A DNA stretch of 40,920 bases from Candidatus Ligilactobacillus faecavium (GCA_019120355.1 DWVG01000062.1:1-40920); one strand, 5' to 3'. Positions 10,513 to 36,672 are shown, counted from the first letter of the stretch. Translations and numbers: made by a program. The notes: generated by a model from the sequence alone, not told the origin.

Positions 10513-10679
10513 AGAAGGGTGACAAAACGTAAAAAACGAGTGTGGTGGAAGCGCGGATCATAGGTTTGGAGGTTTTTGAACTTCACTAGCTGCGCGTCGC
10601 AGCTCCGTTTGTTTTGGAACTCAATTATGCAGGGATAGCAAAGAGGTTGTGACTTATGTCACAACCTCTCTTTTTTTTT
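10513..10679 (-). repeat. Dispersed intergenic repeat, copy A (hairpin end at right)
   Basis: Reverse complement aligns across most of its length with copies at 12213 and 36498; ends in AGAGGTTGTGAC-TTAT-GTCACAACCTCT. Confidence 0.88.
10642..10679 (+). terminator. Intrinsic terminator formed by the hairpin end of repeat copy A
   Basis: 12-bp perfect stem, TTAT loop, then CTTTTTTTTT. Confidence 0.93.
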
Positions 10680-10680
10680 A

Positions 10681-10920
10681 CTATTGGTTTTCTTTTTGCT
10701 TTTTCCGTGCTTTGATTTTGCGAATAATGTACTGAACAGCAATCGTTAATAACGAGCAGAACGTACTTAAAACGATAAAATCAAAGATCAATAAAATGAT
10801 CAGTTCCAGCGACATTTGCGGGTGGTGAATAAATTTTTGAACCGTAAATGCAAGGCAAGCGATCAATAACAGGGTATCAGCAATGAAAATCAGGATTAAA
10901 TTGCGTTTAAGATGTTTCAT
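10681..10920 (-). CDS. Small membrane protein, two predicted TM segments, unknown function
   Basis: 79-aa ORF with hydrophobic N-terminal and central segments and a basic C-terminus. Confidence 0.55.
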   Translation of the reverse strand: MKHLKRNLILIFIADTLLLIACLAFTVQKFIHHPQMSLELIILLIFDFIVLSTFCSLLTIAVQYIIRKIKARKKQKENQ

Positions 10921-10935
10921 TATTGCACCTGCTTT

Positions 10936-11277
10936 TTATTCGCTGCCGACGATGCTGCGGACTTGGGTCCCGAGATTTTCCCAGAATTGATATGCGTCAT
11001 CCTTGAAGTCATCTTCAAAGGTTTCAAATCCTTTCCGGGGAACGAGTTCACCGACCCGTTCGCTTTGAACGCCGCGCACCCACATTTTTTTATCTTGAAC
11101 ATCCCACAAAACAGTCCAGTAAGATTCTTCAAGGGCTTCGTTAAAAAGGTCTTGAGTTCCTGAAAGAACCGTGTCGCGTAAGACGCCTTCTTCAGTTGCA
11201 TCTGGATATCCATGAGCTTTAAGCCAAGATAACTTAGCGATTGCTTCAGGATAATCGTCAGGAATCATTGTAAACAT
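10936..11277 (-). CDS. Conserved-looking soluble hypothetical protein
   Basis: 113-aa acidic ORF; GGAGGG RBS on the minus strand upstream (about 11283-11288). The overlapping ORF 10920..11213 is in another frame. Confidence 0.65.
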   Translation of the reverse strand: MFTMIPDDYPEAIAKLSWLKAHGYPDATEEGVLRDTVLSGTQDLFNEALEESYWTVLWDVQDKKMWVRGVQSERVGELVPRKGFETFEDDFKDDAYQFWENLGTQVRSIVGSE

Positions 11278-11396
11278 AAATATCCCTCCTTAGAATATCT
11301 GTTTTCATTTTACAAAAAAATCTTAAAGAGTGAAAGATTATATGGTAAGCTAAAATTAATTAGAAAACGATTTCAAAAATCGCAGGAGGCTTTCTG

Positions 11397-12212
11397 ATGA
11401 AAATTAAAATGATTGCAACGGATATTGACGGAACATTGGTGACGGATGATAAACGAATCATGCCGCGGACCGTTGCCGCTCTTAAAGAAGCCCGGAAACG
11501 CGGAATTTACGTTGTGCTGTGCAGCGGTCGGCCGGTTTCAGGAATTCAAGACTATTTAACAGAGTTAGGGTTAACGGGGAATGACGACTATGCAATCACA
11601 TTTAACGGAGCGCAGGTAATGAATGTTGGCAAGCGCGAAGTTGTATTTGAAAATGGTCTGACTGATAAAGAATGCATTGATTTTATTAAAATGGCGGATG
11701 ATTTGGGAATCAAAAGTCAAGTCGTGACGCTGAACTCTGAAATTTACGTTACGAATCAAGACATCAGCAAGTACTCGGTTGAAGATGCTTTTTATACTCA
11801 CATGCCATTAAGGTATCGGCGGCTTGAAGATTTACCGACGGGGATGGATGCCGCGAAATTTATGTGGGTCGATCAAGCCCAAAAGATTGCGGCGCAACTT
11901 GACCAAATCCCTGAAGAACTTTATCAAAAGTACGCAATCGTCAGAAGTGCACCGTGGTTCTTGGAATTTAACAACGTGAACGCAACAAAAGGCCATGCAG
12001 TGTTGGAACTGGCAGCTCAGCTTGGAATCAAATCGGATGAGATTATGGTCGCGGGGGATGAAAACAATGACCTTTCAATGCTTGAACAGATTCCATTCAG
12101 CGTTGCGATGGGAAATGGAAACCCGCATGTGAAGGAAGCTGCTTCAGTGATTACGGAAGATAACAACCACGATGGCTTAGGGTTAGCGGTTGAAAAGTAT
12201 GTGTTGAATTAG
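11397..12212 (+). CDS. HAD-superfamily Cof-type sugar-phosphatase (YidA-like)
   Basis: MIATDIDGTLVTDDKRIMPRTVAALKEARKRGIYVVLCSGRP...VAGDENNDLSMLEQIPFSVAMGNG. Confidence 0.92.
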   Translation: MKIKMIATDIDGTLVTDDKRIMPRTVAALKEARKRGIYVVLCSGRPVSGIQDYLTELGLTGNDDYAITFNGAQVMNVGKREVVFENGLTDKECIDFIKMADDLGIKSQVVTLNSEIYVTNQDISKYSVEDAFYTHMPLRYRRLEDLPTGMDAAKFMWVDQAQKIAAQLDQIPEELYQKYAIVRSAPWFLEFNNVNATKGHAVLELAAQLGIKSDEIMVAGDENNDLSMLEQIPFSVAMGNGNPHVKEAASVITEDNNHDGLGLAVEKYVLN

Positions 12213-12390
12213 AAGAGGTTGTGATGTAAATCACAGCCTCTTTGCTGTCTTCGCATAATCGAGCTCCAAAACAAACGAAGCTACGATGCGAAGCTAGTAA
12301 AGTTCGAAAATTTCCGAATCTCTGCTGCCGCGATTCGTTCGCTTTTCGGCTTCCACCACGGTCGTTTTTGATGTTTTGGCACACCTTCTT
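12213..12390 (+). repeat. Dispersed intergenic repeat, copy B (hairpin end at left)
   Basis: AAGAGGTTGTGA-TGTAAA-TCACAGCCTCTT then GCATAATCGAGCTCCAAAACAAACG...CTTCCACCACG...GTTTTGGCACACCTTCTT. Confidence 0.9.
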
Positions 12391-12432
12391 CTTTTTTTGA
12401 TTACTTTTGCTCATTTTTTGAATAAAAATGAA

Positions 12433-12480
12433 TGAATTTGACTGAATGTGATTGAATTTGATTATTAATAATGCTAAACT
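12433..12480 (+). promoter_or_regulatory. fru promoter with three tandem 10-bp repeats (TGAATTTGAC TGAATGTGAT TGAATTTGAT), candidate FruR operator
   Basis: Repeats at 12433-12462; -35-like TTGAAT 12452-12457, 17-bp spacer, -10-like TAAACT 12475-12480. Confidence 0.65.
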
Positions 12481-12504
12481 ATTGACGTGGAGGGAATGAA
12501 AGTG

Positions 12505-13254
12505 CTTGCAGAAGAACGGCAACAAATGATTTTGGAGATGCTGAAAGCCAATCAATTTGTGAAGGTTCAGGAAATTTGCGACCAAACCCACGGATCAGAA
12601 TCATCAGTCCGGCGCGACTTACAAACGCTTGAAGAGAAAGGAATGTTGGAACGGGTCCACGGGGGTGCAAAAATCAGTTATACCTTACAGAATGAACCGG
12701 ACATGTTTGGCAAAGCGTCCCAACATCCGCATGCCAAAGAGCTGATTGGTAAACAAGCAGCGCAGCATGTTAAACCCGAAGATGTGATTTTCCTTGATGC
12801 CGGAACAACGACCCTTGCAATGGTCGATTATTTACCGCAGAATCAAGGAATCACGGTGGTAACGAACGGAATTTTGCATGCTTCGGCTTTAGCGGAACGG
12901 CACATCAAAACGATTATGGTTGGCGGCCTTTTGAAAGAAACGACCAAAGCAATCGTTGGGGTCGATGCATTGAATCAGTTAAGCAAACTGCGATTTAATA
13001 AAGCATTCCTTGGAATCAACGGCATTGATCAGGATGGTTACACAACGCCAGATCCAGATGAAGCCGCAATTAAGGAACAGGCATTAACAAGCTCGCAGGC
13101 CACGTTTGTGCTTGCTGATTCATCGAAGTTTAATAAGGTATCCTTTGTGAACGTTGCCCCGTTAAATGCCGCAACGATCATCGTTGAAAAACTTCCGGCA
13201 AAGCTGCTTCATTCTTTTAAGAGTCAAACGAGAGTTGAGGAGGTTCAAGAATGA
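12505..13254 (+). CDS. fruR: DeoR/GlpR-family fructose operon transcriptional regulator
   Basis: MLAEERQQMILEMLKANQFVKVQEICDQTHGSESSVRRDLQTLEEKGMLERVHGGA is the DeoR HTH; followed by fruK and fruA. In-frame GTG at 12505; ORF-track start is 12487. Confidence 0.92.
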   Translation, partial: LAEERQQMILEMLKANQFVKVQEICDQTHGSESSVRRDLQTLEEKGMLERVHGGAKISYTLQNEPDMFGKASQHPHAKELIGKQAAQHVKPEDVIFLDAGTTTLAMVDYLPQNQGITVVTNGILHASALAERHIKTIMVGGLLKETTKAIVGVDALNQLSKLRFNKAFLGINGIDQDGYTTPDPDEAAIKEQALTSSQATFVLADSSKFNKVSFVNVAPLNAATIIVEKLPAKLLHSFKSQTRVEEVQE

Positions 13255-14162
13255 TTTACACAGTTACGGTCAATCCATCAATTGACTATATCGTTCAGTT
13301 ACAAAATTTAACGCTTGGCGAAGTCAACCGGATGGATTATGACAACATGCTTCCCGGCGGTAAGGGAATCAACGTTTCGCGGATTCTTCAAGAACTTGGT
13401 CACGAAAGTGTTGCTTGGGGATTCTTAGGCGGCTTTACCGGCAACTTTGTCGAAGATGCATTGAAGAAGGTCGGCTTGAAATCTGACTTCACTTCAATTA
13501 AGGGGAATACCCGAATCAACGTTAAGATTAAGGCCCAAGAAGAAACCGAAATTAACGGTAAGGGCCCGCAATTATCAGCTGACGAACTTGATCAGTTCAA
13601 GGCAAAATTTGATAACTTAACGGCAGATGACACGGTCGTGTTTGCTGGCAGTCTTCTTCCTGGATTGGGTGATGATTTTTACTTCGATTTGATCAAGATC
13701 ATCCGGTCAAAGGACGCTCAATTTGTAATTGATACGACGGGTGACAGCTTGTTGAAGACGTTGCCGGAACACCCATTAGTTGTTAAACCGAATAACCATG
13801 AATTAGCTGAAATGTTTCACGTGAAATTCAACGGGATGGATGACATCGTGAAATATGCCAAGAAGTTGCTTGAGATGGGTGCTCAACACGTATTGATCTC
13901 AATGGCAGGCGATGGCGGCTTAATGGTTACGAAGGATAAGGTTTACCGTTCATTAGCACCAAAGGGAACGGTCATCAATTCTGTTGGGGCCGGCGATTCA
14001 ATGCTTGCTGGTTTTACCGGAACGTTTGCTGAAACCAGGGATCCAGTCGAAGCATTCCGGTATGGTCTTGCGAGCGGATCAGCCACCGCATTTTCTGAAG
14101 ATTTGGCAACCCGCGCCAAAATCGATGAAATTTTGCCGCAAATCAAAATTACAGAATACTAA
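13251..14162 (+). CDS. fruK: 1-phosphofructokinase
   Basis: MIYTVTVNPSIDYIVQLQNLTLGEVNRMDYDNMLPGGKGINVSRIL...NSVGAGDSMLAGF; 4-nt overlap with fruR. Confidence 0.95.
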   Translation: MIYTVTVNPSIDYIVQLQNLTLGEVNRMDYDNMLPGGKGINVSRILQELGHESVAWGFLGGFTGNFVEDALKKVGLKSDFTSIKGNTRINVKIKAQEETEINGKGPQLSADELDQFKAKFDNLTADDTVVFAGSLLPGLGDDFYFDLIKIIRSKDAQFVIDTTGDSLLKTLPEHPLVVKPNNHELAEMFHVKFNGMDDIVKYAKKLLEMGAQHVLISMAGDGGLMVTKDKVYRSLAPKGTVINSVGAGDSMLAGFTGTFAETRDPVEAFRYGLASGSATAFSEDLATRAKIDEILPQIKITEY

Positions 14163-14180
14163 TTAAAGGAGGGAAAAATC

Positions 14181-16145
14181 ATGGATATTCGCAAGTTATT
14201 GATGAAGGATATCATGATCATGAACCTGAAAGCCACAACTAAGGCTGGAGTTATTGATGAAATGGTTCATCACTACTACGAAAAGGGAATCATCAATGAT
14301 GAAGAACTTTACAAAAAAGATATTTTAAAGCGTGAAGAAGAAGGCTCAACTGGAATGGGCGATGGAATTGCGATTCCGCACGCACACGATAAGGCAGTTA
14401 ATAAACCAGCCGTAATGTTTGCGCGCAGCGTTAAAGGGGTCGACTATGATTCGATGGATGGTCAACCAGCGCACCTCTTCTTCATGATTGCTGCTCCTGA
14501 AGGCGGCGACAATACTCACTTGCAGGCTTTAGCCGCATTGTCGCAAGTTTTGATGAATCCGGACGTTGTTGCAGCATTAAAGAAAGCTGATACGCCGGAC
14601 AAAGTTCAAGCCATCTTTGCCAAGGCCGTTGCCGAAAAGGAAGCTGAAAACAAGGCTGAAGAAGAAGCGGAAAAACAAGCTCTAGCTTCAAGCGATAAGC
14701 CATATATCGTTGGGGTAACAGCATGTCCAAACGGAATTGCCCACACTTACATGGCTGAAGAAAACTTGAAGAAAACGGCCAAGAAGATGGGCGTTGACAT
14801 CAAGATCGAAACAAATGGTTCAGAAGGGGTTAAACATGAATTAACTGCTGATGAAATCAAGCGTGCCAAAGGGGTTATCATTGCGGCCGACAAGAAGGTT
14901 AAGATGGCCCGGTTTGATGGCAAGCACTTAGTTAATAAGCCAGTTACTGCCGGAATCAAAGAACCGGAAGCATTGATTCAAGAAATCTTGGATGAAAAAG
15001 CTCCAGTCTTCCACGCAACTGGTGATGAAGGTGAAACCGCCGAAGAATCATCAAACGGCGGCGTATGGGCTAACATCTACAAGCAGTTAATGAACGGAAT
15101 TTCACACATGTTACCGTTCGTTATCGGCGGTGGGATCTTAATGGCCCTTTCATTTGTTGTTGAAAACTACATGGGCGGAAGCCACAGCTTGGCATTCAAG
15201 TTCTTGAACAATGCCGGGAATATGGCCTTTGCTTTCATGGTTCCGGTTCTTGCCGGATACATTGCTGAAGCAATCGGCGATCAACCAGCTTTGATGCCAG
15301 GGTTCGTCGGCGGTTTCATGGCAATGGTCTACAAGGGTTCATTTGGTGGCGTCTACCAAGCTAACTTCCATGCCAATGCCGGAGCATGTGCTGGATTCTT
15401 AGGTGGAATCGCCGCCGGCTTCATTGCTGGATACATTATGGTTGGCTTGAAGAAGTTATTTGCCAAGTTGCCAAAATCAGTTGAAGGAATGAAACCAATG
15501 CTGATTTACCCAATCCTTGGATTACTGCTGATTGCTTTGATCATGTTCTTCATCATCAACCCAATCTTCTCAGGCATTAACTTGGTAATTACGCACTTCT
15601 TGAACAGCATGGGAACCGGAAACCTTGTTCTATTGACAATGATTCTTGCAGGAATGATGTCAATCGATATGGGCGGCCCATTCAACAAAGCAGCTTATGT
15701 TTTCGCTTCAGGTGCATTTGCTAACGACCCACACTCAACAACTGCTGCCATTTTAATGGCTGCCGTTATGGTTGGGGGAATGGTTCCGCCATTTGCAACG
15801 GCAATCGGAACGGTCTTATTCAAGAACAAGTTTACTAAGCAAGAACGTCAAGCCGGGGTAACCAACTGGGTTCTTGGATTCTCATTCATTACTGAAGGGG
15901 CAATTCCATTCGCAACGGCTGACCCATTGCGCGTTATTCCATCATGTATCGTCGGTTCAGCAGTCGGCGGTGCAATCGTTGGCTTAATGAAGATCGGTGT
16001 CCCGGCTCCTCACGGTGGTTTATGGGTAACTCCATTAGCAACTAACTGGTGGGCATACATCTTAGCAACCGTAATTGGTTCAATTGTTGCCGGAATCATT
16101 ATGGGCTTGATCAAGAAGAAAGTTTCAGAAGATCCGTATGAATAA
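14181..16145 (+). CDS. fruA: PTS fructose transporter subunit IIABC
   Basis: EIIA (GDGIAIPHAHDKAV), EIIB (VTACPNGIAHTYMAEE), EIIC (GGILMALSF...SFITEGAIPFATADPLRVIP). Confidence 0.95.
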   Translation: MDIRKLLMKDIMIMNLKATTKAGVIDEMVHHYYEKGIINDEELYKKDILKREEEGSTGMGDGIAIPHAHDKAVNKPAVMFARSVKGVDYDSMDGQPAHLFFMIAAPEGGDNTHLQALAALSQVLMNPDVVAALKKADTPDKVQAIFAKAVAEKEAENKAEEEAEKQALASSDKPYIVGVTACPNGIAHTYMAEENLKKTAKKMGVDIKIETNGSEGVKHELTADEIKRAKGVIIAADKKVKMARFDGKHLVNKPVTAGIKEPEALIQEILDEKAPVFHATGDEGETAEESSNGGVWANIYKQLMNGISHMLPFVIGGGILMALSFVVENYMGGSHSLAFKFLNNAGNMAFAFMVPVLAGYIAEAIGDQPALMPGFVGGFMAMVYKGSFGGVYQANFHANAGACAGFLGGIAAGFIAGYIMVGLKKLFAKLPKSVEGMKPMLIYPILGLLLIALIMFFIINPIFSGINLVITHFLNSMGTGNLVLLTMILAGMMSIDMGGPFNKAAYVFASGAFANDPHSTTAAILMAAVMVGGMVPPFATAIGTVLFKNKFTKQERQAGVTNWVLGFSFITEGAIPFATADPLRVIPSCIVGSAVGGAIVGLMKIGVPAPHGGLWVTPLATNWWAYILATVIGSIVAGIIMGLIKKKVSEDPYE

Positions 16146-16146
16146 A

Positions 16147-16253
16147 AAGAAAGAGTAACAAAACGTTCAAGACGAGCTTCGTTTGTTTTGAAACCCGATT
16201 ATATGAAAAGCAGATAAAAAGAGGATGTGACTGCAAAGTCACATCCTCTTTTT
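16147..16253 (-). repeat. Dispersed intergenic repeat, copy D (internally deleted)
   Basis: Reverse complement AAGAGGATGTGACT..AGTCACATCCTCTTTTTATCTGCTTTTCATATAATCGGGTTTCAAAACAAACGAAGCTCGTCTTGAACGTTTTGTTACTCTTT matches both ends of copies B/C. Confidence 0.82.
16216..16253. terminator. Bidirectional terminator (hairpin of repeat copy D) between fruA and the DUF1002 gene
   Basis: AAAAAGAGGATGTGACT-GCAA-AGTCACATCCTCTTTTT, 17-bp perfect stem. Confidence 0.95.
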
Positions 16254-16271
16254 GTGTCTTATTAAATGAAA

Positions 16272-17315
16272 TTAATTCCAGCCAAATAAACTCTTGATCC
16301 AATCAATGAACCGTTCAAACCAGTTCTTGGCTTCTTGCGCAGCAGCTTGACCTTGTTTGCTGTTCATCCAGTTTTTGGCTTTATTCATCAAATTCCCGGT
16401 TGAATCTTTAACGTTTTGAATCGTGTTGTCAACGTTCTTAGTGTATGATTTATCAGCTGAAATTGGTGAATTTTGGAAATTGATCAACGCATTGGTGATC
16501 TGTTCCTTTTGGTTATTCGTTGTTTCATTTGCGATTCCATGTTCAGCTAAAGCCTTATTCAACATGGCTTGAATATCCTGCTTAGTTGCAAGATCTTGAC
16601 CGTTATTTTGTTGTTTTTGTTGTGAAATTTGCTTTGAAACTTCACCAACGGCAGCCATTAACTGACCAGGATACTTAGTATTGTTCTTGTTGGCATCGAT
16701 TGCTGATTGGGTCGCGTTCAGCATTTGGTTAGCACTGGCAGTATTTTGAGTATTCAATTGAATCCCGTTAGCTGCAAGGGCTTCGTAAACGCCGGTTAAA
16801 GCTGATTCCCCGGAAACGGGCCGGTTGGCAGTTACAACGATCGTGACGTCAGTCACCCCGGCCATTTGAGCAACCATGGCATATTGTTGGGCTGTTACTT
16901 CGGTAATGTTGTTATCGCCCTGGTAGTCTTTGATGTTGACCTTGACCCCTGAACCAGGATCACTTGGAGCGATCGCAACGGAACTGATCATTGCGGCATT
17001 TGTCGTGTCAGATGTTCCGTTGGCAATGTACTTATTGTAGTCAGCAGCCGTTGCGGTCAGTTCCTTAAATGACGAGTCAACGCCAAAAATCTTGTTTAAT
17101 TGTGAACGGACTTCACTTGAAGTTCCGGCCCCATAGACAACGTATGCTGAGCTTAAAGTTTTATCATTATTTGATTGACTGTTAGTGTTCGTGTTTGAGT
17201 CGGTTTGTTCGGTTTGCGCAGCTTGAATTTGGTTAAGAACCGTTGGTGCAGTTCCCATTAAGGTAATTGCCGCACTGGCAGTTACAATTGTTTTCCAGAT
17301 AGTTTTCTTTTTCAT
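16272..17315 (-). CDS. DUF1002 domain-containing secreted protein
   Basis: Signal peptide then SSAYVVYGAGTSSEVRSQLNKIFGV...VAIAPSDPGSGVKVNI..ITEVTAQQYAMVAQMAGVTDVTIVVTANRPVSGESALTGVYEA. Confidence 0.92.
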   Translation of the reverse strand: MKKKTIWKTIVTASAAITLMGTAPTVLNQIQAAQTEQTDSNTNTNSQSNNDKTLSSAYVVYGAGTSSEVRSQLNKIFGVDSSFKELTATAADYNKYIANGTSDTTNAAMISSVAIAPSDPGSGVKVNIKDYQGDNNITEVTAQQYAMVAQMAGVTDVTIVVTANRPVSGESALTGVYEALAANGIQLNTQNTASANQMLNATQSAIDANKNNTKYPGQLMAAVGEVSKQISQQKQQNNGQDLATKQDIQAMLNKALAEHGIANETTNNQKEQITNALINFQNSPISADKSYTKNVDNTIQNVKDSTGNLMNKAKNWMNSKQGQAAAQEAKNWFERFIDWIKSLFGWN

Positions 17316-17421
17316 CGCGCTTCTCCTTTCAAATATAGTTTGATTTTATCACTTTTTGGCATTGAACGGACGAATTTTACGAACCGTTTCAAGAATAAAA
17401 ATTAGGAAAGGGCCGAAAGAT

Positions 17422-17476
17422 GATTAACACAATATATAGATTTTTAGTTGATTAAACCACAATATGTATGTATAAT
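17422..17476 (+). promoter_or_regulatory. pnuC promoter TTGATT-N17-TATAAT overlapped by an imperfect direct repeat GATTAA(A)(C)CACAATATRTA
   Basis: Repeat 1 at 17422-17438, repeat 2 at 17450-17468; -35 17448-17453, -10 17471-17476. Confidence 0.6.
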
Positions 17477-17514
17477 GAGGGACGTTGTTTAAAAATGGAA
17501 AGGAAGTTGATTCG

Positions 17515-18285
17515 ATGTTTAGTCGTTATAAAGATGTGCTGACGCACTTACCAGAATATTCAAAAAACATTTTTCGGAAAGGCTATTTTAAATGGTTGAT
17601 CGATCAGTGCCGCGGGTGGGGCTGGTTTAGTTACGGCCTTTTGATTTTTAACTTTATTTTACAAGTGTGGTCAATGGTTCAGTCATTTAGTGCCCACCCA
17701 GTAACTTCAATCATTGCGTTTATTGGCGGGAACCTTTCAGTTGCATGTGTTATCGGAATTTCAAACCGTTCAGGAATTCAAGGCTGGGCGGGATTAACAA
17801 GTGCGATCTGCATTGCAACGACTGCCTTCATTGCGCATAACTATGCGAATGCTTGGGAACAAATCGGTTATATTTTATTCCTTGATATTTTCTGTATTTT
17901 AGACCCGAAGTGGAATGATGATATTAAAGCTGAAAAATTTGATAGTTGGTTTGACTGGATCAAGTACGGCATCTTCTTCTTGATCGCGTGGGCTGTTTTG
18001 CATTACATTTTCAGTTTAACCAATGATCCGCGGGTCTTTCTTGACAGTATGAGTTTAGCGATGTCAGTTACTGGATCACTGCTTGAACTTAACCGGAAGC
18101 GGGAACAGTATTTTGTTTGGACGTTATCATCAGTGATCACGATCGCATTATGGATTCAAACGATGCTTCAAGGCGCTGGCAACTTTGCATTGATCTTCAG
18201 TTATTCGATTTTCTTCTTGAATGACATGTATGCTTTCTTTAGTCGCAAAGGTTGGTTCCGGACAGCAAAGACGCATGAAAATTAA
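17515..18285 (+). CDS. pnuC: Nicotinamide riboside/mononucleotide transporter PnuC
   Basis: Hydrophobic protein with RGWGWFSYGLLIFNFILQVW and C-terminal FSYSIFFLNDMYAFFSRKGW; in-frame ATG 17515 preferred (ORF track 17485). Confidence 0.88.
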   Translation: MFSRYKDVLTHLPEYSKNIFRKGYFKWLIDQCRGWGWFSYGLLIFNFILQVWSMVQSFSAHPVTSIIAFIGGNLSVACVIGISNRSGIQGWAGLTSAICIATTAFIAHNYANAWEQIGYILFLDIFCILDPKWNDDIKAEKFDSWFDWIKYGIFFLIAWAVLHYIFSLTNDPRVFLDSMSLAMSVTGSLLELNRKREQYFVWTLSSVITIALWIQTMLQGAGNFALIFSYSIFFLNDMYAFFSRKGWFRTAKTHEN

Positions 18286-18361
18286 TCATAAAAATTTATT
18301 AAATTCAATGACAAACGAATTAATGAATTGTATACTAAAAACAATCAAATAACTCATAACC

Positions 18362-18396
18362 AAGAAGAAGCTCCGATTATTCGGGGCTTTTTCTTG
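18362..18396 (+). terminator. Intrinsic terminator after pnuC
   Basis: AAGAAGAAGCTCCGA-TTAT-TCGGGGCTTTTTCTT. Confidence 0.8.
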
Positions 18397-18505
18397 TAGT
18401 TTAAAGCCTTTAGCCGGGAGATTCTGAAGGAATTCCAGAATGTGGTAAAATACTTAATGGAAGTTTACCGCTAATTTTAGATTATGAATTAAAACGAGGG
18501 AAGTT

Positions 18506-20530: not shown

Positions 20531-20541
20531 GAGGAATCACA

Positions 20542-20991: not shown

Positions 20992-21013
20992 AAAAGCTTT
21001 GAAATTGAATTAT

Positions 21014-25658: not shown

Positions 25659-25677
25659 ATGAACATAATTTGAGAGA

Positions 25678-25716
25678 AAAAAGACGGCTGTGATGTGAGT
25701 CACAGCCGTCTTTTTA
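25678..25716. terminator. Bidirectional terminator hairpin of the (G/C)TGTGA..TCACAG family
   Basis: AAAAAGACGGCTGTGA-TGTGAG-TCACAGCCGTCTTTTT. Confidence 0.93.
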
Positions 25717-26103: not shown

Positions 26104-26107
26104 AATC

Positions 26108-26875: not shown

Positions 26876-26878
26876 TTT

Positions 26879-28375: not shown

Positions 28376-28462
28376 AAAATGACCTCCTATATGATTGATA
28401 TTTTTATTATCTATTAAATTAAAGAAGAATTTGTTAAAAAACGAAATTCTTTAAAATTAATT

Positions 28463-28512
28463 AACACATGTATATAATTACACTTGTGTTTCTTATTACA
28501 CTTATATATAAT
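28463..28512 (+). promoter_or_regulatory. TetR-gene promoter with inverted repeat AACACA-N16-TGTGTT, candidate TetR operator
   Basis: AACACA 28463-28468 and TGTGTT 28485-28490; TTGTGT (28484-28489)-N17-TATAAT (28507-28512). Confidence 0.5.
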
Positions 28513-28594
28513 AGAACATGAAAATTAGAATTGCAACATTTTTGAAAAGATATTATTAGGGTATGAAAATAATTGAAAAGGAGAAAAGGATAGG

Positions 28595-29137
28595 ATGGAT
28601 CGAAGGGTTGCACGCACAACTGGACGAATCAAAAAAGTATTTGGCGAATTGATTCAGGAAAAGGCGTTTGCTGACATTACGGTCAAGATGATCTGCGATG
28701 CAGCAGATGTTGAACGGAAGACATTTTACCTGCATTTCAAGGATAAGTATGACTTATTAGATGCAATTTTAAAGGAACATTTTGAGGCGTTTCGTGAAAA
28801 TGTCCGTCAGATTCCAGACGCAAAACCGATTGACTTTTACCGGGAAGCGCTGGCAATGCTTGGCAGACATCGGGAATTTTTTAAACGCGTTTATAATGGT
28901 CAAGCCTCGGCATTAATTCGGAAGAGAATTCAATATTATGTTTTGCAACGATTGCAATTAGAGTATGGAACAGACGTTGACCCGGCAATTCAGCATTTTA
29001 TTGCGGCCGGAATCGGAGGCGTTTTTGAATCATACATTAACGGTGAGATTGAGGGCAGCGACGAACAGATTGCCGCTGACATGGCATGGATGGTTGTTCA
29101 AGCCAAAAAGTATTTAAAGAAGAATTTAAACAAATAG
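28595..29137 (+). CDS. TetR/AcrR family regulator
   Basis: RTTGRIKKVFGELIQEKAFADITVKMICDAADVERKTFYLHFKDKYDLLDAIL. Confidence 0.9.
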   Translation: MDRRVARTTGRIKKVFGELIQEKAFADITVKMICDAADVERKTFYLHFKDKYDLLDAILKEHFEAFRENVRQIPDAKPIDFYREALAMLGRHREFFKRVYNGQASALIRKRIQYYVLQRLQLEYGTDVDPAIQHFIAAGIGGVFESYINGEIEGSDEQIAADMAWMVVQAKKYLKKNLNK

Positions 29138-29169
29138 TGGATGAGCATTGCTCATCCACTATTTGTTTA
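29127..29169. terminator. Shared terminator: 20-bp perfect inverted repeat spanning the 3' ends of both convergent CDSs
   Basis: TAAACAAATAGTGGATGAGC-ATT-GCTCATCCACTATTTGTTTA. Confidence 0.85.
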
Positions 29170-29635
29170 CACTCACTTTAATGATTGTAACTTGGTATGA
29201 CGAAGCCGGAGCAACGACATCGACGGTCGTGCCGGCTTTTTGATGCATGATTGCGCGTCCAATCGGCGAATCGAATGAAATCTTTTGCTCGTCAACGTTG
29301 GCTTCCTGTTTACCGACAATATGATATGTTTCGGTCTCGTTGTCATCTTCAAAACGAAGTTCAACGTCGGTTCCAATGTCAACTTCACCGTTATCTTCGG
29401 GTTCAATTACTTGAGCATATTGCAGTTGTTTGTTGAGATAACGCAACCGACTTTCAAGGTGGCGCAAGTCCCGTTTAGCAGCACTGTACTCGGCGTTTTC
29501 AGATAAATCGCCAAGCGCCCGGGCTTCTTGTAACTGTTTAATTTTGGCCGGCCGGTCAGCTTTGAGCGCTTCGATTTCGTCAACGATTTGCTGGTGACCT
29601 TCCGGCGTCATTTTTTGAAAATATACATCAGCCAT
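29159..29635 (-). CDS. greA: Transcription elongation factor GreA/GreB family
   Basis: MTPEGHQQIVDEIEALKADRPAKIKQLQEARALGDLSENAEYSAAKRDL...PIGRAIMHQKAGTTVDVVAP. Confidence 0.93.
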   Translation of the reverse strand: MADVYFQKMTPEGHQQIVDEIEALKADRPAKIKQLQEARALGDLSENAEYSAAKRDLRHLESRLRYLNKQLQYAQVIEPEDNGEVDIGTDVELRFEDDNETETYHIVGKQEANVDEQKISFDSPIGRAIMHQKAGTTVDVVAPASSYQVTIIKVSVNK

Positions 29636-29640
29636 AAAAT

Positions 29641-30021
29641 TTAACCTTCACTTTCTTCAAGCATTTTACGCTTCAGCGGAATGTAATGGTGCTGTTTGAT
29701 TTCGCGGTCGACCTTATGAATCTCTTTATCAGGAGTTTTCTGGGTCGTTTTGCGGAAAGCATGCATGATAAAGTAATCTCCGTCTTGGGCAATGAACATC
29801 AACCGGTATTTGCCTAACCGAATTTTGTATAAATGCCGGTAAGGAAGCCGTAAGATCATTCGTTTAACCGTTGGCCGGGTAAGCGGCAAGGTTTGTTCGT
29901 TCATTTGAGTCAGCATGTCATTGACTTTGCGGTAAATACTTTGGTCCTTTTCGCGAATTTTGCGATACCAGTCTAAAAATAGGACTTTTCCGCGATTATC
30001 TTCATACAGGTAGATTGCCAT
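29641..30021 (-). CDS. RelE/HigB (Gp49-like) type II toxin-family protein
   Basis: LYEDNRGKVLFLDWYRKI...TVKRMILRLPYRHLYKIRLGKYRLMFIAQDGDYFIMHAFRKTTQKTPDKEIHKVDREIKQH is the HigB-like signature (L..LY.IR.G.YR..F, ..L.AFRKK...TP..EI..A); in-frame ATG at 30021 preferred. Confidence 0.82.
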   Translation of the reverse strand: MAIYLYEDNRGKVLFLDWYRKIREKDQSIYRKVNDMLTQMNEQTLPLTRPTVKRMILRLPYRHLYKIRLGKYRLMFIAQDGDYFIMHAFRKTTQKTPDKEIHKVDREIKQHHYIPLKRKMLEESEG

Positions 30022-30048
30022 TTCAAAGATCCTCTCTAAAATTGAAAC

Positions 30049-30082
30049 TTGACATAGCATGATATATTTTAATTATATCATG
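30049..30082. promoter_or_regulatory. Divergent promoter region with 9-bp inverted repeat CATGATATA-N7-TATATCATG
   Basis: TTGACA (30049-30054) and TTATAT (30073-30078) toward the MATE gene; TATAAT on the opposite strand toward the toxin gene; inverted repeat 30058-30082. Confidence 0.55.
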
Positions 30083-30126
30083 GTCGTTGAAAAATAATGA
30101 AAACGACGCGGAAAGGGAAGAATATC

Positions 30127-31464
30127 GTGGAAGAACTATTTGAGAAAGCACCAATTAAACAGGTCTATTTTAAGATCTCGTTACCGGTCGTAATGGGGAT
30201 GCTCGCCAGTATGGTATATAACTTGGCGGACACCTTTTTTGTTGCGCAAACGGGGAATACAGACCTGGTTGCGGGAATTACGGTTTGTACTCCGCTGTTC
30301 ATGTTTATGTTAGCTTTAGGCGATATTTTCGGAATCGGCGGCAGCTCCGTGATCTCGCGGTTGTTTGGTCAAAAAGAACATGAACGCAGCGCCCGGACCA
30401 GCAGCGTCTGTTTTTACTATTCAATTGGCTTAGGGATAGTTGTCATGTTTTTGCTAATGATTTTTGAAAAACCGCTTTTACACATGCTCGGGGCAACGAC
30501 GGCAACATATCAGTATGCAGCCGCCTTTTACCGGGTTTACGTTTTGGGTGCGCCGATCATTATCACATCATTGACGCCAACGAACCTGATTCGGACAGAA
30601 GGATTAGCAAAACAAAGTATGCTCGCAACGGTTTACGGGATCGTTGTATCTTTGATTCTTGATCCGATCTTTATTTTCGGATTAAAGTGGGGCGCTGCCG
30701 GCGTCGCATTATCAAACCTTCTTGGGTATGCCCTTGAGTTGGGATTGTTGATCTATTACACCGTTCGCGACTGCAAGTACATTAACGTTGACATTAAACA
30801 GGCCCATATTAGTTGGAAGGAATTTCGGGAAGTCTTAGCAATCGGAATTCCCGGTTCGATTACGAATCTGATGCAAAGTTTCGGCATTGCATTATTAAAT
30901 AATTTTTTAGCAGCTTACGGAGCAAATCAGGTGGCCGCAATGGGAATCACGCAAAAGATTGCTTCGATCGTTACCTTAGTAATGGTCGGCTTTGCCTTTG
31001 GAGCGCAACCATTGATCGGATATAACTACGGAGCGAAGAATGTTAAACGGTTCAAGGAAGCCCTTGACTTTGATTTGCTGATCGAAGTCGGTTACGCAAT
31101 TGTCTTTTCGATTCTTCTGATGATTATTGCCCCGTTTTTGATCAAAATTTTCATGAATAAACCGGTCATTGTCAGTCTTGGAACCTACATGTTGCGGGCA
31201 TGTTTGACAACCACGCCATTTATCGGCGCAATTCTCGTATTTACAACCGTTTTTCAATCAGCTGGAAAAGCCTGGAGTGCATTTACAATGTCATTTGCCC
31301 GGCAAGGAATCGTTTACCTGATTACGATGCTTGCATGTTCTGCATTTTTCGGTTTCCATGGGGTTGTCTGGGCGCAACCAGTTGCCGATGTGATTACATT
31401 TGCAATTGGTTTGCTGTTATACCGCGGTGATTTTCATAAATGGATGCAACAAAATGAAAAATAA
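30127..31464 (+). CDS. MATE family efflux transporter
   Basis: PIKQVYFKISLPVVMGMLASMVYNLADTFFVAQTGNTDLVAGITVCTPLFM; GTG at 30127 has RBS GGAAAGGGAAG; ORF-track ATG 30097 lacks one. Confidence 0.9.
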   Translation: MEELFEKAPIKQVYFKISLPVVMGMLASMVYNLADTFFVAQTGNTDLVAGITVCTPLFMFMLALGDIFGIGGSSVISRLFGQKEHERSARTSSVCFYYSIGLGIVVMFLLMIFEKPLLHMLGATTATYQYAAAFYRVYVLGAPIIITSLTPTNLIRTEGLAKQSMLATVYGIVVSLILDPIFIFGLKWGAAGVALSNLLGYALELGLLIYYTVRDCKYINVDIKQAHISWKEFREVLAIGIPGSITNLMQSFGIALLNNFLAAYGANQVAAMGITQKIASIVTLVMVGFAFGAQPLIGYNYGAKNVKRFKEALDFDLLIEVGYAIVFSILLMIIAPFLIKIFMNKPVIVSLGTYMLRACLTTTPFIGAILVFTTVFQSAGKAWSAFTMSFARQGIVYLITMLACSAFFGFHGVVWAQPVADVITFAIGLLLYRGDFHKWMQQNEK

Positions 31465-31544
31465 GTTCGAGAAACTTGCTAATTTATGTTAAGATATTGT
31501 TCGTGCGTAATAAAAAAGAATTAATGTTTGGAAAGGTGATATAG

Positions 31545-32663
31545 GTGAAACGGATCGAAGAATCTGGGGAAATTTCATTCAAGCAAGCTTTTGTTGATTT
31601 TTGGCGCGGACTATTCAGTTTCGGCGGCCGGTCAACGCGGACGGGTTTTTGGTATGGAATTTTGATGATGAGATTGATTATTCCTTGTGGACTCTTAGGT
31701 TTACTTGTAGTTTTAGACGGAATGGTCTACGGAATGACGGGACCTGCTGGAATATTTTGGCCTGTTTTGATTATTTCATTTCTAGTTTATTCAGTTGTTT
31801 TGATTGTAATTCAAATTGGGACATGGGCATTATTTTTCCGCCGGATGCGGGATGTTGGTTTTAAAACCACTCCTTTGGTAATTTGGATAGTAATTTCTTT
31901 GGCAAAGGAAGCAATTCCATATTTACCAATTCTAGTGGGAGTCGTTGACCTTTGGTTGATCTATATTGTGTCCGTTCCGTCCGGCCATTTTGTTAAGCAA
32001 TATCAAAACGGTTTTATGAAATTCCTTTTTGAAAGTCCGGATACCTTTGAATTTCATGATGGCCTTCAAGTTATTAAATTTGAACCTGACGGAACAGAAG
32101 AAACCGTTGTGAAGGGCCGAATCATGGAACGCGGAAAGGTCAGCTTTAAGCAGGCACTCCATGACTACTTCCATGGAATGTTGAGCTTTGGCGGCCGGTC
32201 GACCCGTGCAGGGTTCTGGAAGGTAACTCCGATTTTTCAAATTATAATGATGATTTTTGGGGTTGGATTTTTAGGGTATGTGATGGTTCGAATTTATTCT
32301 TACCCAGCTGAAGAGGCAGTATTACTAACATTTATGACTGCACTAGGAGTAGGAATGATTATTTTGAGCGTCTTTGTTCCATTAGGATTTGCTAACTGGG
32401 CAGTGATGATCCGCCGGCTAAGAGATGTTGGACTGAAATTGAAGACAATGTTCATTGGCTGGGGTCTCATGGCAGTGTTAAATATTATTATTTTGATTGT
32501 TTTTTCAGCCGGTTATGGATTTACCCTTGGAATAATTTGGGGAACCATTTGGAATATTGGAATTGATTTAATTATTCAAATCATTTTCCTGTGCCTTCCA
32601 ACTGGAGCAATGGCAACGCAAAAGGAAGATTCAAAATTTTTTGAAAATAAAGCATTATATTAG
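31545..32663 (+). CDS. Tandem two-domain DUF805 membrane protein
   Basis: Two copies of the DUF805 signature: FGGRSTRTGFWYG...FFRRMRDVGFKT and FGGRSTRAGFWK...IRRLRDVGLK. Confidence 0.88.
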   Translation: MKRIEESGEISFKQAFVDFWRGLFSFGGRSTRTGFWYGILMMRLIIPCGLLGLLVVLDGMVYGMTGPAGIFWPVLIISFLVYSVVLIVIQIGTWALFFRRMRDVGFKTTPLVIWIVISLAKEAIPYLPILVGVVDLWLIYIVSVPSGHFVKQYQNGFMKFLFESPDTFEFHDGLQVIKFEPDGTEETVVKGRIMERGKVSFKQALHDYFHGMLSFGGRSTRAGFWKVTPIFQIIMMIFGVGFLGYVMVRIYSYPAEEAVLLTFMTALGVGMIILSVFVPLGFANWAVMIRRLRDVGLKLKTMFIGWGLMAVLNIIILIVFSAGYGFTLGIIWGTIWNIGIDLIIQIIFLCLPTGAMATQKEDSKFFENKALY

Positions 32664-32681
32664 AGAAAGAGGGATTTTAAA

Positions 32682-33245
32682 ATGCATCGAATTGAAGAAA
32701 GCGGAGAAGTAACATTTGGTCAAGCAATTAAGGATTTTATTCAAGGATGGGTAAGCTATGGTGGCCGCTCAACTCGTGCCGGATACTGGTGGGCAATCTT
32801 AGGAGTGGTGCTTTACGTACTTGCTGGAATGTTGCTTTCATTCATGTTAATGTTTACAGTTCGAATTTTGGGAGTCATTTTCATTTGCCTTTTGGGAATT
32901 TCAAGTATTTTTGTACTTATTGCAGCCTACGCGTTATTATTTAGACGTTTTCGGGATGTAGGTTTTAAGACGGCACCAATTGTTATTTGGTTACTTTGCT
33001 ACTTCTTTGTTCCATTTGTAAATGCAATTGCCGGAATTGCCGGGCTTGTCTTTATGTTCCTTCCAACTGACCAGTTTGTTGCCGAAAAGGAAAACTGGTT
33101 AGTGCGGGGCAAAGACACTGTTGATGAAACGCAAACAACAGCTGCTCAACCGCAATTAACAAAGGCGGCCCCAGCAACTGCCGCAAGTCCATCACTTCCA
33201 ACCGTTGTCTTTTATCCAGACGGTCGCGAACAAGAAGTTAAATAA
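32682..33245 (+). CDS. DUF805 membrane protein
   Basis: YGGRSTRAGYWWA...LFRRFRDVGFKTAPIVIW...LPTDQF. Confidence 0.9.
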   Translation: MHRIEESGEVTFGQAIKDFIQGWVSYGGRSTRAGYWWAILGVVLYVLAGMLLSFMLMFTVRILGVIFICLLGISSIFVLIAAYALLFRRFRDVGFKTAPIVIWLLCYFFVPFVNAIAGIAGLVFMFLPTDQFVAEKENWLVRGKDTVDETQTTAAQPQLTKAAPATAASPSLPTVVFYPDGREQEVK

Positions 33246-33256
33246 TTAAAATGAAG

Positions 33257-33297
33257 ATGAGGAGGCTGTGATTTACATCGCAACCTTCTTTTTTTGA
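33257..33297 (+). terminator. Imperfect terminator hairpin of the GTTGTGA family inside the DUF805 cluster
   Basis: GAGGAGGCTGTGA-TTTACA-TCGCAACCTTCTTTTTTT. Confidence 0.65.
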
Positions 33298-33361
33298 CCA
33301 TTCCATTTTAAGTGGAGTATCATTAATAGATAAAGAGGATTGAACTGAAAGGAAAGAGAAC

Positions 33362-33847
33362 ATGAAGCTTAAACAAGTTAATGAGAATCAAGATGTCACG
33401 TTAAAAGACAGCTTATTAAACTTTTGGAAAGGATTTATCAGCTATGACGGACGTTCGGTTCGAAAATCATTTTGGATTGGAATCGTTGAGTATTTGGCAG
33501 TGCTGATCGTGATCGATCAGTTGATTTTAGGATACTTTGCATCGGCTTATGCTGGTGGAACAAGTGGAATCGTCGTTTTGGTTATCCGGGCAATTTTCTT
33601 GTTGGTAATGTTGATTCCATTAACGGCGCTTGCGTTTCGGCGGTTGCGGGATGTAGGGTTAAAGACGTTGCCGATTACGGTTTTAGTGGTTATTAATGCT
33701 GTTTTAGCATTGTTCAACGTTTTGTTTACTTCAACGATTGCCGTTGCAGCATTAGTGGTTTGCCAAGCATTCTTAATTTTACTGTTCTGCATTCCAACTG
33801 ACGCAATGGCAGTTGATAAGGAAACAAAAGTATTTCGTGAAAAATAA
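33362..33847 (+). CDS. DUF805 membrane protein (divergent)
   Basis: YDGRSVRKSFWIG...FRRLRDVGLKTLPITV...IPTDAMAVDKE. Confidence 0.85.
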   Translation: MKLKQVNENQDVTLKDSLLNFWKGFISYDGRSVRKSFWIGIVEYLAVLIVIDQLILGYFASAYAGGTSGIVVLVIRAIFLLVMLIPLTALAFRRLRDVGLKTLPITVLVVINAVLALFNVLFTSTIAVAALVVCQAFLILLFCIPTDAMAVDKETKVFREK

Positions 33848-33867
33848 GATTAAAGAAGGATTTTAAG

Positions 33868-34959
33868 ATGCGGCGAATTAATGAAAAGGGAAAAGTTTCA
33901 TTTGAGGAGGCTTTTCACGATTATTGCCGGGGAATCTTAAGTTATGGCGGCCGGTCGACCCGTGCAGGCTATTGGTGGGGGCAAGTTGTTTGTTTGATTT
34001 TTATTGGTGCTTTGTGCACCATTTTCTATGGCAGCCTTGAATCATCAATGGCATCGGGTCATCAATCAATCATTATGGTTGGCAGTCTGATCGTTTCGAT
34101 TGGCGGCATGTTGCTGTACATTGCCGAATACGCCATTTTGGCCCGGCGCCTGCGGGATGTTGGATTTCAAACTTTTCCCGTAGTAGTTTGGATCATTTTA
34201 CGGTGGATGGCAGCCTTGATGGTTAAACTTTTCGGTTCGGCATTTGGAATTGTTTTACTGACAGTGTTGGCGGTTCAACTAGTTTTGTGCTGTTTGCCGA
34301 CAGATTATTTTGCCCGCCCAAAAGCCAGTTGGATTACCCGTGCAAAGGAAAACGAAGATTTACAAGGAAGCGATAAAATGACAAAAACAGCAGCAGTAAT
34401 GATTGCTCCGGGGTGTGAAGAAATCGAAGCGTTAACGCCAGTCGATGCTTTGCGCCGGTTAGGGGCTAAGGTCGATATGGTTGGTTTGGAAAGCATCGAT
34501 GTAATGGGAGCGCATGGCATTAAATTGACCTGTGATAAGGTAATGGATGAAAGCCTATTGGATTATGACATCGTTATTTTCCCAGGGGGTTCGAAGGGCG
34601 CTGATAACTTACGGGATAGTGATCAATTAATGGACTTGATCCAACAACGCCACGCCGCTGGAAAATGGAACGCTGCGATGTGTTCAGGTCCGGTTGCGTT
34701 TGCTCGTTACGGTTTGCTGGATAACTGCACGTATACGTGTTTTCCAGGAGTTGAAAAGCAATTTGAAAATGACGTTAAGAATGCCACACATTCAGATGAA
34801 ATCGTCGTTGTTGACGAAGTGGGAAAAATCATCACCAGTCGCGGCCCGGCAACTGCAATGGCTTACGCATTCAAGATTGCTGAAATCTTAGGCGTTGATC
34901 CGGCGCCACAAGAAGAAGCAATGCTTTACAACTACTTACGCGATGAAATGCGGAAGTAA
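33868..34959 (+). CDS. Fusion protein: N-terminal DUF805 and C-terminal DJ-1/PfpI-family domain
   Basis: YGGRSTRAGYWWG..ARRLRDVGFQTF..LPTDYFARPK then MTKTAAVMIAPGCEEIEALTPVDALRRLGAKVDMVGLES..PGGSKGADNLRDS..AAMCSGPVAFARYGLL in one uninterrupted frame. Confidence 0.85.
   Translation: MRRINEKGKVSFEEAFHDYCRGILSYGGRSTRAGYWWGQVVCLIFIGALCTIFYGSLESSMASGHQSIIMVGSLIVSIGGMLLYIAEYAILARRLRDVGFQTFPVVVWIILRWMAALMVKLFGSAFGIVLLTVLAVQLVLCCLPTDYFARPKASWITRAKENEDLQGSDKMTKTAAVMIAPGCEEIEALTPVDALRRLGAKVDMVGLESIDVMGAHGIKLTCDKVMDESLLDYDIVIFPGGSKGADNLRDSDQLMDLIQQRHAAGKWNAAMCSGPVAFARYGLLDNCTYTCFPGVEKQFENDVKNATHSDEIVVVDEVGKIITSRGPATAMAYAFKIAEILGVDPAPQEEAMLYNYLRDEMRK
34364..34380 (+). promoter_or_regulatory. Internal Shine-Dalgarno (AAGGAAG) and ATG (34378) at the DJ-1 domain start
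   Basis: AAGGAAG-CGATAAA-ATG, 7-nt spacing, in frame with the fusion. Confidence 0.65.
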
Positions 34960-34979
34960 AAATTAAATTTTGATAATTA

Positions 34980-35012
34980 CGAGGTTATGCAAGGGTCATA
35001 ACCTCGTTTTTG
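34980..35012 (+). terminator. Intrinsic terminator
   Basis: CGAGGTTATG..CATAACCTCGTTTTT. Confidence 0.85.
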
Positions 35013-35055
35013 GATTATAATGGAAAGTATCATTTTTTAAGAAAGGAAGAGGATT

Positions 35056-35760
35056 TTGCGCGCATATCGCGAAAAGATCAAGCGGCCGCACTTGTACCAA
35101 TTGCGGGAATTGGCATTAGCATTTACCTTTTGCGGCGGTTTTATTGATGCATATACTTTTACGGAACGTGGTGGTACGTTGGCTGCCGGGCAGACTGGAA
35201 ACATTATCTTTTTTGGAACGGATATTGCCAAGCGCGATCTTCCGGGATTAACGACCAAAGTTGCAACGTTTTTGGCGTATATTCTGGGACTGATCGTGGT
35301 AACGACGATTGCGTTGAAGGTAAAGTCGAAGTATAAACGGATTTTTTGCATTTTACCGATCATGTTTATTTCATTGGTCGTTGGCTTTGTTCCAACGAGT
35401 GTTCCAAACGTTTTTGTTGTTCCGTTTCTGGCGTTTGGTATCGCAATGCAGACGATCGCATTTAATAAGATCGAAGGCCTCGGTTACCGGAACACGGTTT
35501 CAACGGGAAACTTACAAAAAGCGGTAATTGCCTGGACGAAGTATTTTGTTAACCACGACAGCAGTCAAACGCGAGCGGCTTCAAACTACCTGTTACTGGT
35601 AATTAGTTTTATTTGCGGGGCAATCGTTTCGGCGTTGCTTGATAATTACTTTGGAATTCACACGATTTGGATCGCAGCTTCATTGTTAGTGATTATTAAT
35701 TTCTGCTATGGATTAATGGTTTATCACCGGGATAATTTTTATCCGGGAGAGAAACTCTAA
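35056..35760 (+). CDS. YoaK/DUF1275 family membrane protein
   Basis: ALAFTFCGGFIDAYTFTERGGTLAAGQTGNIIFFG; TTG start with GAAAGGAAGAGG upstream. Confidence 0.9.
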   Translation: MRAYREKIKRPHLYQLRELALAFTFCGGFIDAYTFTERGGTLAAGQTGNIIFFGTDIAKRDLPGLTTKVATFLAYILGLIVVTTIALKVKSKYKRIFCILPIMFISLVVGFVPTSVPNVFVVPFLAFGIAMQTIAFNKIEGLGYRNTVSTGNLQKAVIAWTKYFVNHDSSQTRAASNYLLLVISFICGAIVSALLDNYFGIHTIWIAASLLVIINFCYGLMVYHRDNFYPGEKL

Positions 35761-35802
35761 CCCGGAAAATGGTATAATAAAGGTGTAATCAAAGGCCGTG
35801 AG

Positions 35803-36489
35803 GTGATAATGATGAAATTTAAGAAATCAAGTTTATTAGTTGTTGCTGGAATGGCGGTTTTGCTTGCAGGATGCGGCAATCAATCAGCTTCAACAAATGG
35901 AAAAAAGGCGGACAACACACCAAAAACCGAAGCGGTTAAACGCAGTCAGAATGATCAAACGCAAACCGCTGATGATCAATCAACGGCGAATACCAACACG
36001 CCGGCAACCGATAATAATTCGCAGTCAAATCAACAGGTAGCAGCGCAAAATAATCAGAACGCCAATAACGCCCAAACAAAAGAATTTAATAACCAAGCTC
36101 AGGCAGCAAGCTACGTTACCAACCAACCGGGTTACACGACTGGCAATCAACAAGGGTTGCCAACCGTTAACCTTGGGGACGGCATTACAGGAACGTTGAA
36201 TTCTGGTGCTGGGCAACAGATGCTTCAATGGAATGAAGGCAACTGGTCATTTACGGTGCGAGCCTCGGCTGTTCAAGGGCAAGATCCAACACCAACGGCT
36301 AAACAGATCGTGAATGAATTACAAACCGTTTACCTTCCAGCACCGCAAAATCACGGGGTTGGAACGTTCGATATTGCAACGAACACGTACACGTTAACAT
36401 GGCAAAAGAATAATAAGGTTTACAGTGTCAGCGGCAGCAGTCCAAGTGATGTAATCGCAAAGGCGGTTAATGCTGGTAAGAATGAATAA
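35803..36489 (+). CDS. Putative lipoprotein with Asn/Gln-rich low-complexity linker
   Basis: Signal peptide with lipobox LLAGC; N/Q/T-rich stretch; small C-terminal domain. Confidence 0.8.
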   Translation: MIMMKFKKSSLLVVAGMAVLLAGCGNQSASTNGKKADNTPKTEAVKRSQNDQTQTADDQSTANTNTPATDNNSQSNQQVAAQNNQNANNAQTKEFNNQAQAASYVTNQPGYTTGNQQGLPTVNLGDGITGTLNSGAGQQMLQWNEGNWSFTVRASAVQGQDPTPTAKQIVNELQTVYLPAPQNHGVGTFDIATNTYTLTWQKNNKVYSVSGSSPSDVIAKAVNAGKNE

Positions 36490-36497
36490 TTTAGGGT

Positions 36498-36672
36498 AGA
36501 GGTTGTGATATAAATCGCAGCCTCTTTGTTATATTCGCATAATCGGGTTTCAAAACAAACGGTCTACGACGCGAAGCTAGGAAAATTCGAAAACCTCCGA
36601 ATCTTTGCTCTGCGATTCGTTCGCTTTTCTACTTCCACCACGCCTGTTTTTACTGTTTTGTCACACCTTCTT
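36498..36672 (+). repeat. Dispersed intergenic repeat, copy C
   Basis: AGAGGTTGTGATATAAATCGCAGCCTCTTTG...GCATAATCGGGTTTCAAAACAAACG...CTTCCACCACG...GTTTTGTCACACCTTCTT; collinear with copy B. Confidence 0.9.

Follow-up and report, generated by a model that had tools for sequence, protein, structure and literature searches.

A terminator-like repeat family at gene 3′ ends in the Ligilactobacillus aviarius group and its turnover between close relatives

The closest kind of element to the repeat family described here is found in Streptococcus pneumoniae, as SPRITE and BOX repeats. SPRITE is a dispersed repeat that resembles a Rho-independent terminator, with a single 18-bp duplex, a long U-rich tract and A/T-tract ends. 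It is enriched between convergent genes and near gene 3′ ends and has been proposed to be a co-opted terminator; no comparable empty sites were found for it (PMC3049150). BOX and RUP elements are usually <200 bp, modular, tightly folded and non-coding. They are suspected miniature inverted-repeat transposable elements (MITEs), with terminal inverted repeats (TIRs) that pair in the fold and with target duplications, and the middle module of BOX is variable (PMC3049150). The repetitive extragenic palindromic (REP) sequences and REPINs associated with RAYTs are extragenic palindromic units that form single-strand hairpins and occur in tandem in some genomes (PMC3116915, PMC2817692). Here we analysed a repeat in 40,920 nucleotides of Candidatus Ligilactobacillus faecavium DNA (GCA_019120355.1, DWVG01000062.1:1-40920), referred to below as the window, which lies on contig C44 of the source genome (G000, from the L. 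aviarius clade; 1.36 Mb, 85% complete). The dispersed family of ~170-base repeats to which it belongs, in the Ligilactobacillus aviarius group, is genuine. It is probably a new and recently active family that replaces resident terminators; a literature search found nothing published about a repeat of this type in Lactobacillus.

Copies, fold and placement of the repeat

In the source genome, blastn at E<=0.01 found 39 matches, of which about 29 are nearly full-length, and each of four relatives gave at least 26, consistent with the dispersed structured family of the original prediction. This copy number is far above chance, and related genomes hold 40 or so copies. The left-end motif, allowing at most one mismatch, was counted 24 times in G000, 39 in G002 (L. 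aviarius DSM 20655), 46 in G018 (UMNLAv11), 37 in G009, 9 in G010, once in G001 and 4 times in G088. The three near-full copies in the window, A, B and C, align end to end as had been proposed (B/C 85% identity over 177 nt, E 3e-51; A/B 74% over 176 nt, E 2e-28).

The element combines two hairpins, H1 of ~26 nt and an imperfect H2 of ~115 nt, with a short spacer between them. Read in the direction of copy B, it starts with an A-run, H1 (GAGGTTGTGAC-ATAA-GTCRCARCCTC), TTTGCTATATCC and CATAATCGGGTTCCAAAACAAACGAGC, continues through a middle with several interchangeable variants, and ends with CTTCCACCACGCTCGTTTTTAACGTTTTGTCACACC and then TTCTTTTT. H2 pairs GGGT with ACACC (one bulge), CAAAAC with GTTTTG, AAACGAGC with GCTCGTTT, GTGGAAG with CTTCCAC and CGAATC with GATTCG. 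In the G009 lineage, where a different subfamily predominates among the sampled copies, this stem is formed by AAACAGGCATG / CATGCCTGTTT instead. Since RNAalifold found only 8 pairs in the gappy full alignment, we counted changes in this named structure among 56 diverse copies. Pairing was found in 88% of cells, and two-sided changes in 97 cells vs. 38 expected from shuffles, none of 500 of which reached 97. The covariation score was 0.179 vs. 0.05-0.09 with the partners slid, i.e., sliding destroys the signal. For H2 alone, 0 of 500 shuffles matched either the two-sided cells or the score, and H1 alone showed two-sided changes in seven pairs.

Each of the two folds places a stable hairpin directly before a U-tract, a feature of intrinsic terminators. 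The TIR-like ends of the original prediction were present as sequence (AAGAGGTTGTGAC vs. the complement of GTCACACCTTCTT), but the inversion of the outer arms is imperfect and the left arm is missing from distant relatives. Local pairing is favoured: in the folds tested, an element closed as a whole through these arms, as also predicted, was 6-12 kcal/mol less stable.

We examined the neighbours of 106 distinct copies from the loci studied, orthologues included. Convergent genes flank 45 of them, only the left end is at a gene end in 27 and only the right end in another 27; in the remaining 7 one neighbouring gene falls beyond the contig, and no copy lies between divergent genes. Placement at gene 3′ ends in either orientation was thus confirmed. 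A start 0-9 nt from the stop codon proved approximately right, with the spacing mostly 0-30 nt. The 1.19 Mb of G002 that we analysed has 16 convergent, 14 tandem and 0 divergent copies vs. 57, 400 and 98 regions, respectively, in its element-free intergenic background; the excess between convergent genes has p 3e-8 and the deficit between divergent genes p 0.005. The three things on which the original prediction depended, namely further copies, non-random position and stem covariation, were all found.

Transcripts coming from the right have the A-run outside H1 as their U-tract. This run is longer in convergent and right-hand copies than in copies with a left-hand gene only (p about 1e-4). Beyond the right end, the T-run is longer in copies that a left-hand gene reads into than in right-hand copies (p 5e-4 and 3e-3). 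Such directional tracts are expected if H2 ends forward transcripts on the right-hand side and H1 ends reverse ones on the left-hand side, and they do not fit a requirement for fixed mobile-element ends. The U-tract direction is the decisive functional hint: the element appears to behave as a bidirectional double terminator, in line with the terminator role first proposed, and from these sequence features we infer termination in the cell. Each copy would carry two terminator modules back to back. H2, closed by GGGU/ACACC, would stop left-entering transcripts with the U-tract of the right end, and H1, with its GAGGYTGTGAC arm, would stop right-entering transcripts with the U-tract of the opposite strand. 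A single copy could thus terminate transcripts of the gene to its left, of the gene to its right or of two convergent genes at once, whichever way round it lies.

Copy A (10512-10679, minus strand; 10512-10669 in the alignment) lies between convergent genes, an APC permease gene with its stop at 10509 and a minus-strand gene for a small membrane protein ending at about 10681. Its right end is at 10512-10519, its left end CATAATT at 10629-10623 and H1 at 10642-10669; H1 and the T-run at 10670-10679 would act as a terminator for plus-strand read-through. Copy B (12213-12399, plus strand; 12213-12390 in the alignment) follows a HAD phosphatase gene (stop 12210-12212), with H1 at 12214-12241, the left end CATAATCGAGCTCCA at 12254-12268, the right end CACACCTT at 12380-12387 and the T-rich tail to 12399. 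Copy C (36498-36678, plus strand; 36498-36672 in the alignment) is 3′ of an open reading frame (ORF; 35803-36489). It has H1 at 36498-36525, the left end at 36538-36552 and then the right end, with a T-run to about 36678. Copy D (16147-16253, minus strand), between a convergent PTS gene (stop 16145) and a DUF1002 gene, is real, though internally deleted with most of H2 gone; its H1 (16216-16253) is a strong two-way hairpin. The predicted partial copy E turned out to be a simple terminator hairpin without the element (38107-38143, plus strand), and the remainder to 38190 is a weak nhmmer tail of 16 bits. Two solitary H1-type hairpins without a body are found at 25681-25713 and 33262-33286 (no strand assigned). 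An apparent MFS-type transporter gene is split into three ORFs (36744-37061, 37071-37346 and 37416-37682), which fits decay in this genome.

Presence, absence and orientation in related genomes

At 45 sites orthologous to G002, the element was in the same orientation in 16 cases, inverted in 4 and missing in 25. The mean flank identity at G002-mapped sites was 88-96% by group. For the UMNLAv11 set vs. G002, the element was absent at 15 of 25 sites with flanks 95.6% identical on average, and 2 of the 10 shared copies were inverted. These presence/absence and orientation polymorphisms, like the family, its structure, its placement and its orientation-specific U-tracts, can be read directly from the sequences.

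Empty sites nearly always hold a simple terminator hairpin at the same spot. Some of these hairpins are related to H1 (the copy C site, L073 and L005); the copy C site in G002 and G018 has only the hairpin AGAGGTTGTGAC..GTCACARCCTCTTTTTT. Unrelated hairpins occupy the copy A site (AAAACGGTTATGG..CCATAACCGTTTT), the L015 site (GACCTCAGGA..TCCTGAGGTC) and the sites L088, L066, L099_6501, L038, L033 and L099_2933. Deletion derivatives at L096 and L026 retain H1, the spacer and CATAATC, and the empty L062 site has a hairpin built on the right end (AAGAAGGATGTGCCATTGTCACACCTTCTT). An unrelated hairpin, a class assigned by eye, was present at about 9 of 24 element/empty sites vs. 0 of 55 element-free terminators (p 6e-6). 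Among these 55 orthologous hairpins, 48 have at least 75% identity, 6 are intermediate, and 1 is low over the flanks but has a conserved hairpin. Terminators without the element do not show such turnover.

The hairpin at site A is common to G002, G018 and G010, and of these genomes and G000 only the last has the element. Since G010 is the outgroup in this comparison (88% vs. 92-98%), the element in G000 is most likely a gain that replaced a terminator. Site A of G009 (L121) carries two elements, stacked and diverged, whose remnants look opposite in direction. At site B the element of G002 is reversed relative to G000 and G018, and G010 has a simple hairpin; the change of orientation is not a plain inversion because the middle variants differ. 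Copy D has orthologues in G002, G018 and G010; they are likewise degenerate, with more of the element retained in G010. At site E the related species all have simple hairpins, each a different one. Both terminator and downstream gene differ there in each species, and in the window an IS3-family-like transposase ORF (HTH and rve domains; 38491-39876) lies just 3′ of this site.

Element bodies at orthologous sites had an identity of 0.903 vs. 0.882 for paralogues within a genome. In the other genome the orthologous body often ranks well below the best match, and for H1 the orthologue is more often the best match. Bodies thus appear to be exchanged or replaced faster than their surroundings, given that orthologous bodies are barely closer than paralogues. 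We propose that gain would occur when a copy replaces or joins the resident terminator at a gene 3′ end, and that loss would occur by internal deletion leaving a simple hairpin.

Distribution and search for mobilising machinery

By BLAST, six of 26 genomes in the genus carry the family, the source genome included, beyond stray motif matches and tandem relatives in G088; it is absent from 12 genomes of other families in the order. Exact core matches in named genomes are nearly all from L. aviarius DSM 20655 and UMNLAv11, the others being one in Candidatus Ligilactobacillus excrementigallinarum and one in a Candidatus Gallilactobacillus contig. A covariance model of H2, run on 251 genomes of the bacterial family, gave matches outside the clade in a G057 contig and in G247, a different genus. 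The single G057 copy (L051 / L276; JADIMP010000020, G057:C102) is on a 7-kb contig of a Candidatus Gallilactobacillus metagenome-assembled genome, with flanks 91% identical to L. aviarius; this contig is probably misbinned.

G247 and Ligilactobacillus G088 contain 123-bp units, single or tandem, with the ends CATAATCGGGTTCCA ... TCCACACCTTG and different stem sequences. At L322 and L316 the right end adjoins stop codons, and the G247 array comes after a lysozyme-like gene (named from its sequence) and its terminator. A second tandem array in G088 (L328:698-1052; 74-bp unit, 4.8 copies) stands beside the 123-bp array. The comparison suggests that the recognised features may be the ends and the hairpin shape, with the stem sequence free. 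Exact or near matches to the end motif in G239, G196, G203 and G006 were rejected as unrelated sequence without the right end or the fold. Rfam gave no match at gathering score on the window. The phage and plasmid collections had no match to copy B or to the G247 unit, and viral contigs gave none to the tandem junction.

No Y1_Tnp domain was found in G002 or G010 (99% complete), and G000 and G009 gave broken or partial matches only. RVT_1 reverse transcriptase was absent from G002, G009 and G010, with one match in G000. Of the 40 left-module matches in G002, one lies beside Ns and every other has a right module to go with it; no orphan ends of a longer parent were found in the 1.19 Mb analysed. 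The IS3-type transposase gene of the window had no inverted-end match of 18/24 nearby. Conserved ends with freely varying stems would be compatible with recognition through the ends and the shape of the hairpin, possibly in single-stranded DNA. Candidate routes are single-strand hairpin recognition or microhomology-guided terminator exchange. More tentatively, the repeat may represent a new type of mobile element, namely a hairpin cassette that is recognised by its structure and has the ends CATAATCGGGTTCCA ... CACACCTT and free stems. Such a cassette, transposase-less or using other machinery, would spread in Lactobacillaceae by terminator replacement, differ in orientation at the same site and occur as single copies or 123-bp tandem arrays.

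Alternative explanations and comparison with described systems

The repeats are likely to be bidirectional intrinsic terminators that form a non-autonomous family with recent mobility. Several points weigh against this reading. No transposase, RAYT, intron reverse transcriptase or autonomous copy was found in the carriers searched, and the 25 empty/filled comparisons revealed no target duplication, only hairpin replacement or joining. The minimum-energy fold of copy B lacks the consensus H2 stem, and the H2 covariation derives largely from a single contrast, G009 vs. other lineages, so its independence is limited. The 106-copy counts are not independent, as orthologues are among them, and the unrelated-hairpin class depends on judgement by eye. 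Solitary GGYTGTGAC..GTCACARCC hairpins also occur in small numbers, without an element body, in non-carriers of distant genera (G003, G020 and G028), so that H1 is a wider terminator motif and not element-specific.

A classical MITE (the original prediction saw a likeness to a MITE or a REP) would be a relic of a DDE insertion sequence, or would be moved in trans through its outer AAGARGKTGTGAC-like inverted ends, with 3′ ends merely tolerated. Its length of about 170 bp, lack of an ORF, imperfect inverted ends, convergent-gene enrichment and presence/absence polymorphism would all agree with this, and many bacterial MITEs have no detectable parent. We nevertheless consider it unlikely: the resident terminator is replaced, not split, and no site compared carries the duplication expected of a MITE. 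In addition, the right end is constant and H1 varies independently of it (in L037/L090, GGTCATGG..CCATGACC is joined to the standard right end), and the G088/G247 relatives share the body ends only, without the AAGAGG outer arm.

Somewhat less probable still is that ordinary terminators are homogenised, with no dedicated mobile element, by gene conversion, by transformation drive (DUS-like) or by microhomology template switching between A-tract/T-tract hairpins. The small difference between orthologous and paralogous bodies, the frequent failure of the orthologue to be the best match while H1 often is, the fall of replacement edges on A- and T-tracts and the predominance of the distinct G009 subfamily are as this explanation would have it. 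It is opposed by the 0/55 swaps at element-free terminators, by copies arising where no homologous body existed (sites A and C) and by the restriction of the family to six genomes of the genus.

Movement of a REP/REPIN-type element by a RAYT or an IS200/IS605 Y1 transposase, the other origin first proposed, would suit palindromic, extragenic, hairpin-forming repeats, and single-strand recognition would suit variable stems with conserved ends, but it is very improbable given the Y1_Tnp results and the fact that no GTAG/CGTC-tagged palindrome foot was seen. We likewise give little credence to a functional structured RNA selected for its sequence (a 3′UTR regulator or the precursor of a small RNA), despite the covariation and the strongly conserved motifs CATAATCGGGTTCCAAAACAAACG and CTTCCACCACGCTCG: gain and loss are fast, three loci had no Rfam match at E<=1, and opposite strands would be transcribed because copies lie either way round with respect to the gene.

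If mobile replacement of resident terminators is correct, gene 3′ punctuation could be exchanged horizontally or ectopically with genes undisrupted, and a mechanism acting on hairpin DNA would be indicated; basic gene punctuation appears to behave as a mobile element. SPRITE-like terminator repeats were previously suspected to be co-opted mobile DNA, without comparable empty sites. With 25 filled/empty pairs and 4 orientation differences in close relatives, terminator origin and turnover can be studied directly.

We file the family as neither MITE nor REPIN because the target duplication and RAYT features fail. Like REP/REPINs, it comprises extragenic palindromic, hairpin-forming units, with tandem forms in G088 and G247; unlike them, it has no RAYT in the best carriers, has other ends and another size, and is tied to terminators. 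Group IIC introns insert just 3′ of intrinsic terminator hairpins, and a position at terminator hairpins is targeted here as well. However, the repeat has no ribozyme match in Rfam, is only about 130 bp and often replaces the resident hairpin, and the tested carriers have no reverse transcriptase except for the RVT_1 match in G000. Like BOX and RUP it is short, modular, tightly folded and non-coding, with a variable middle as in BOX; it differs in having no duplication and a strict 3′-end placement (a sequence relation was sought via Rfam only). As with SPRITE, its copies are dispersed, fold as terminators and are overrepresented near gene 3′ ends and in convergent intergenic regions, and no homology is claimed. 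Unlike SPRITE, it has two back-to-back hairpins with covarying stems, many empty sites, in-place differences in orientation and resident terminators that have been replaced.

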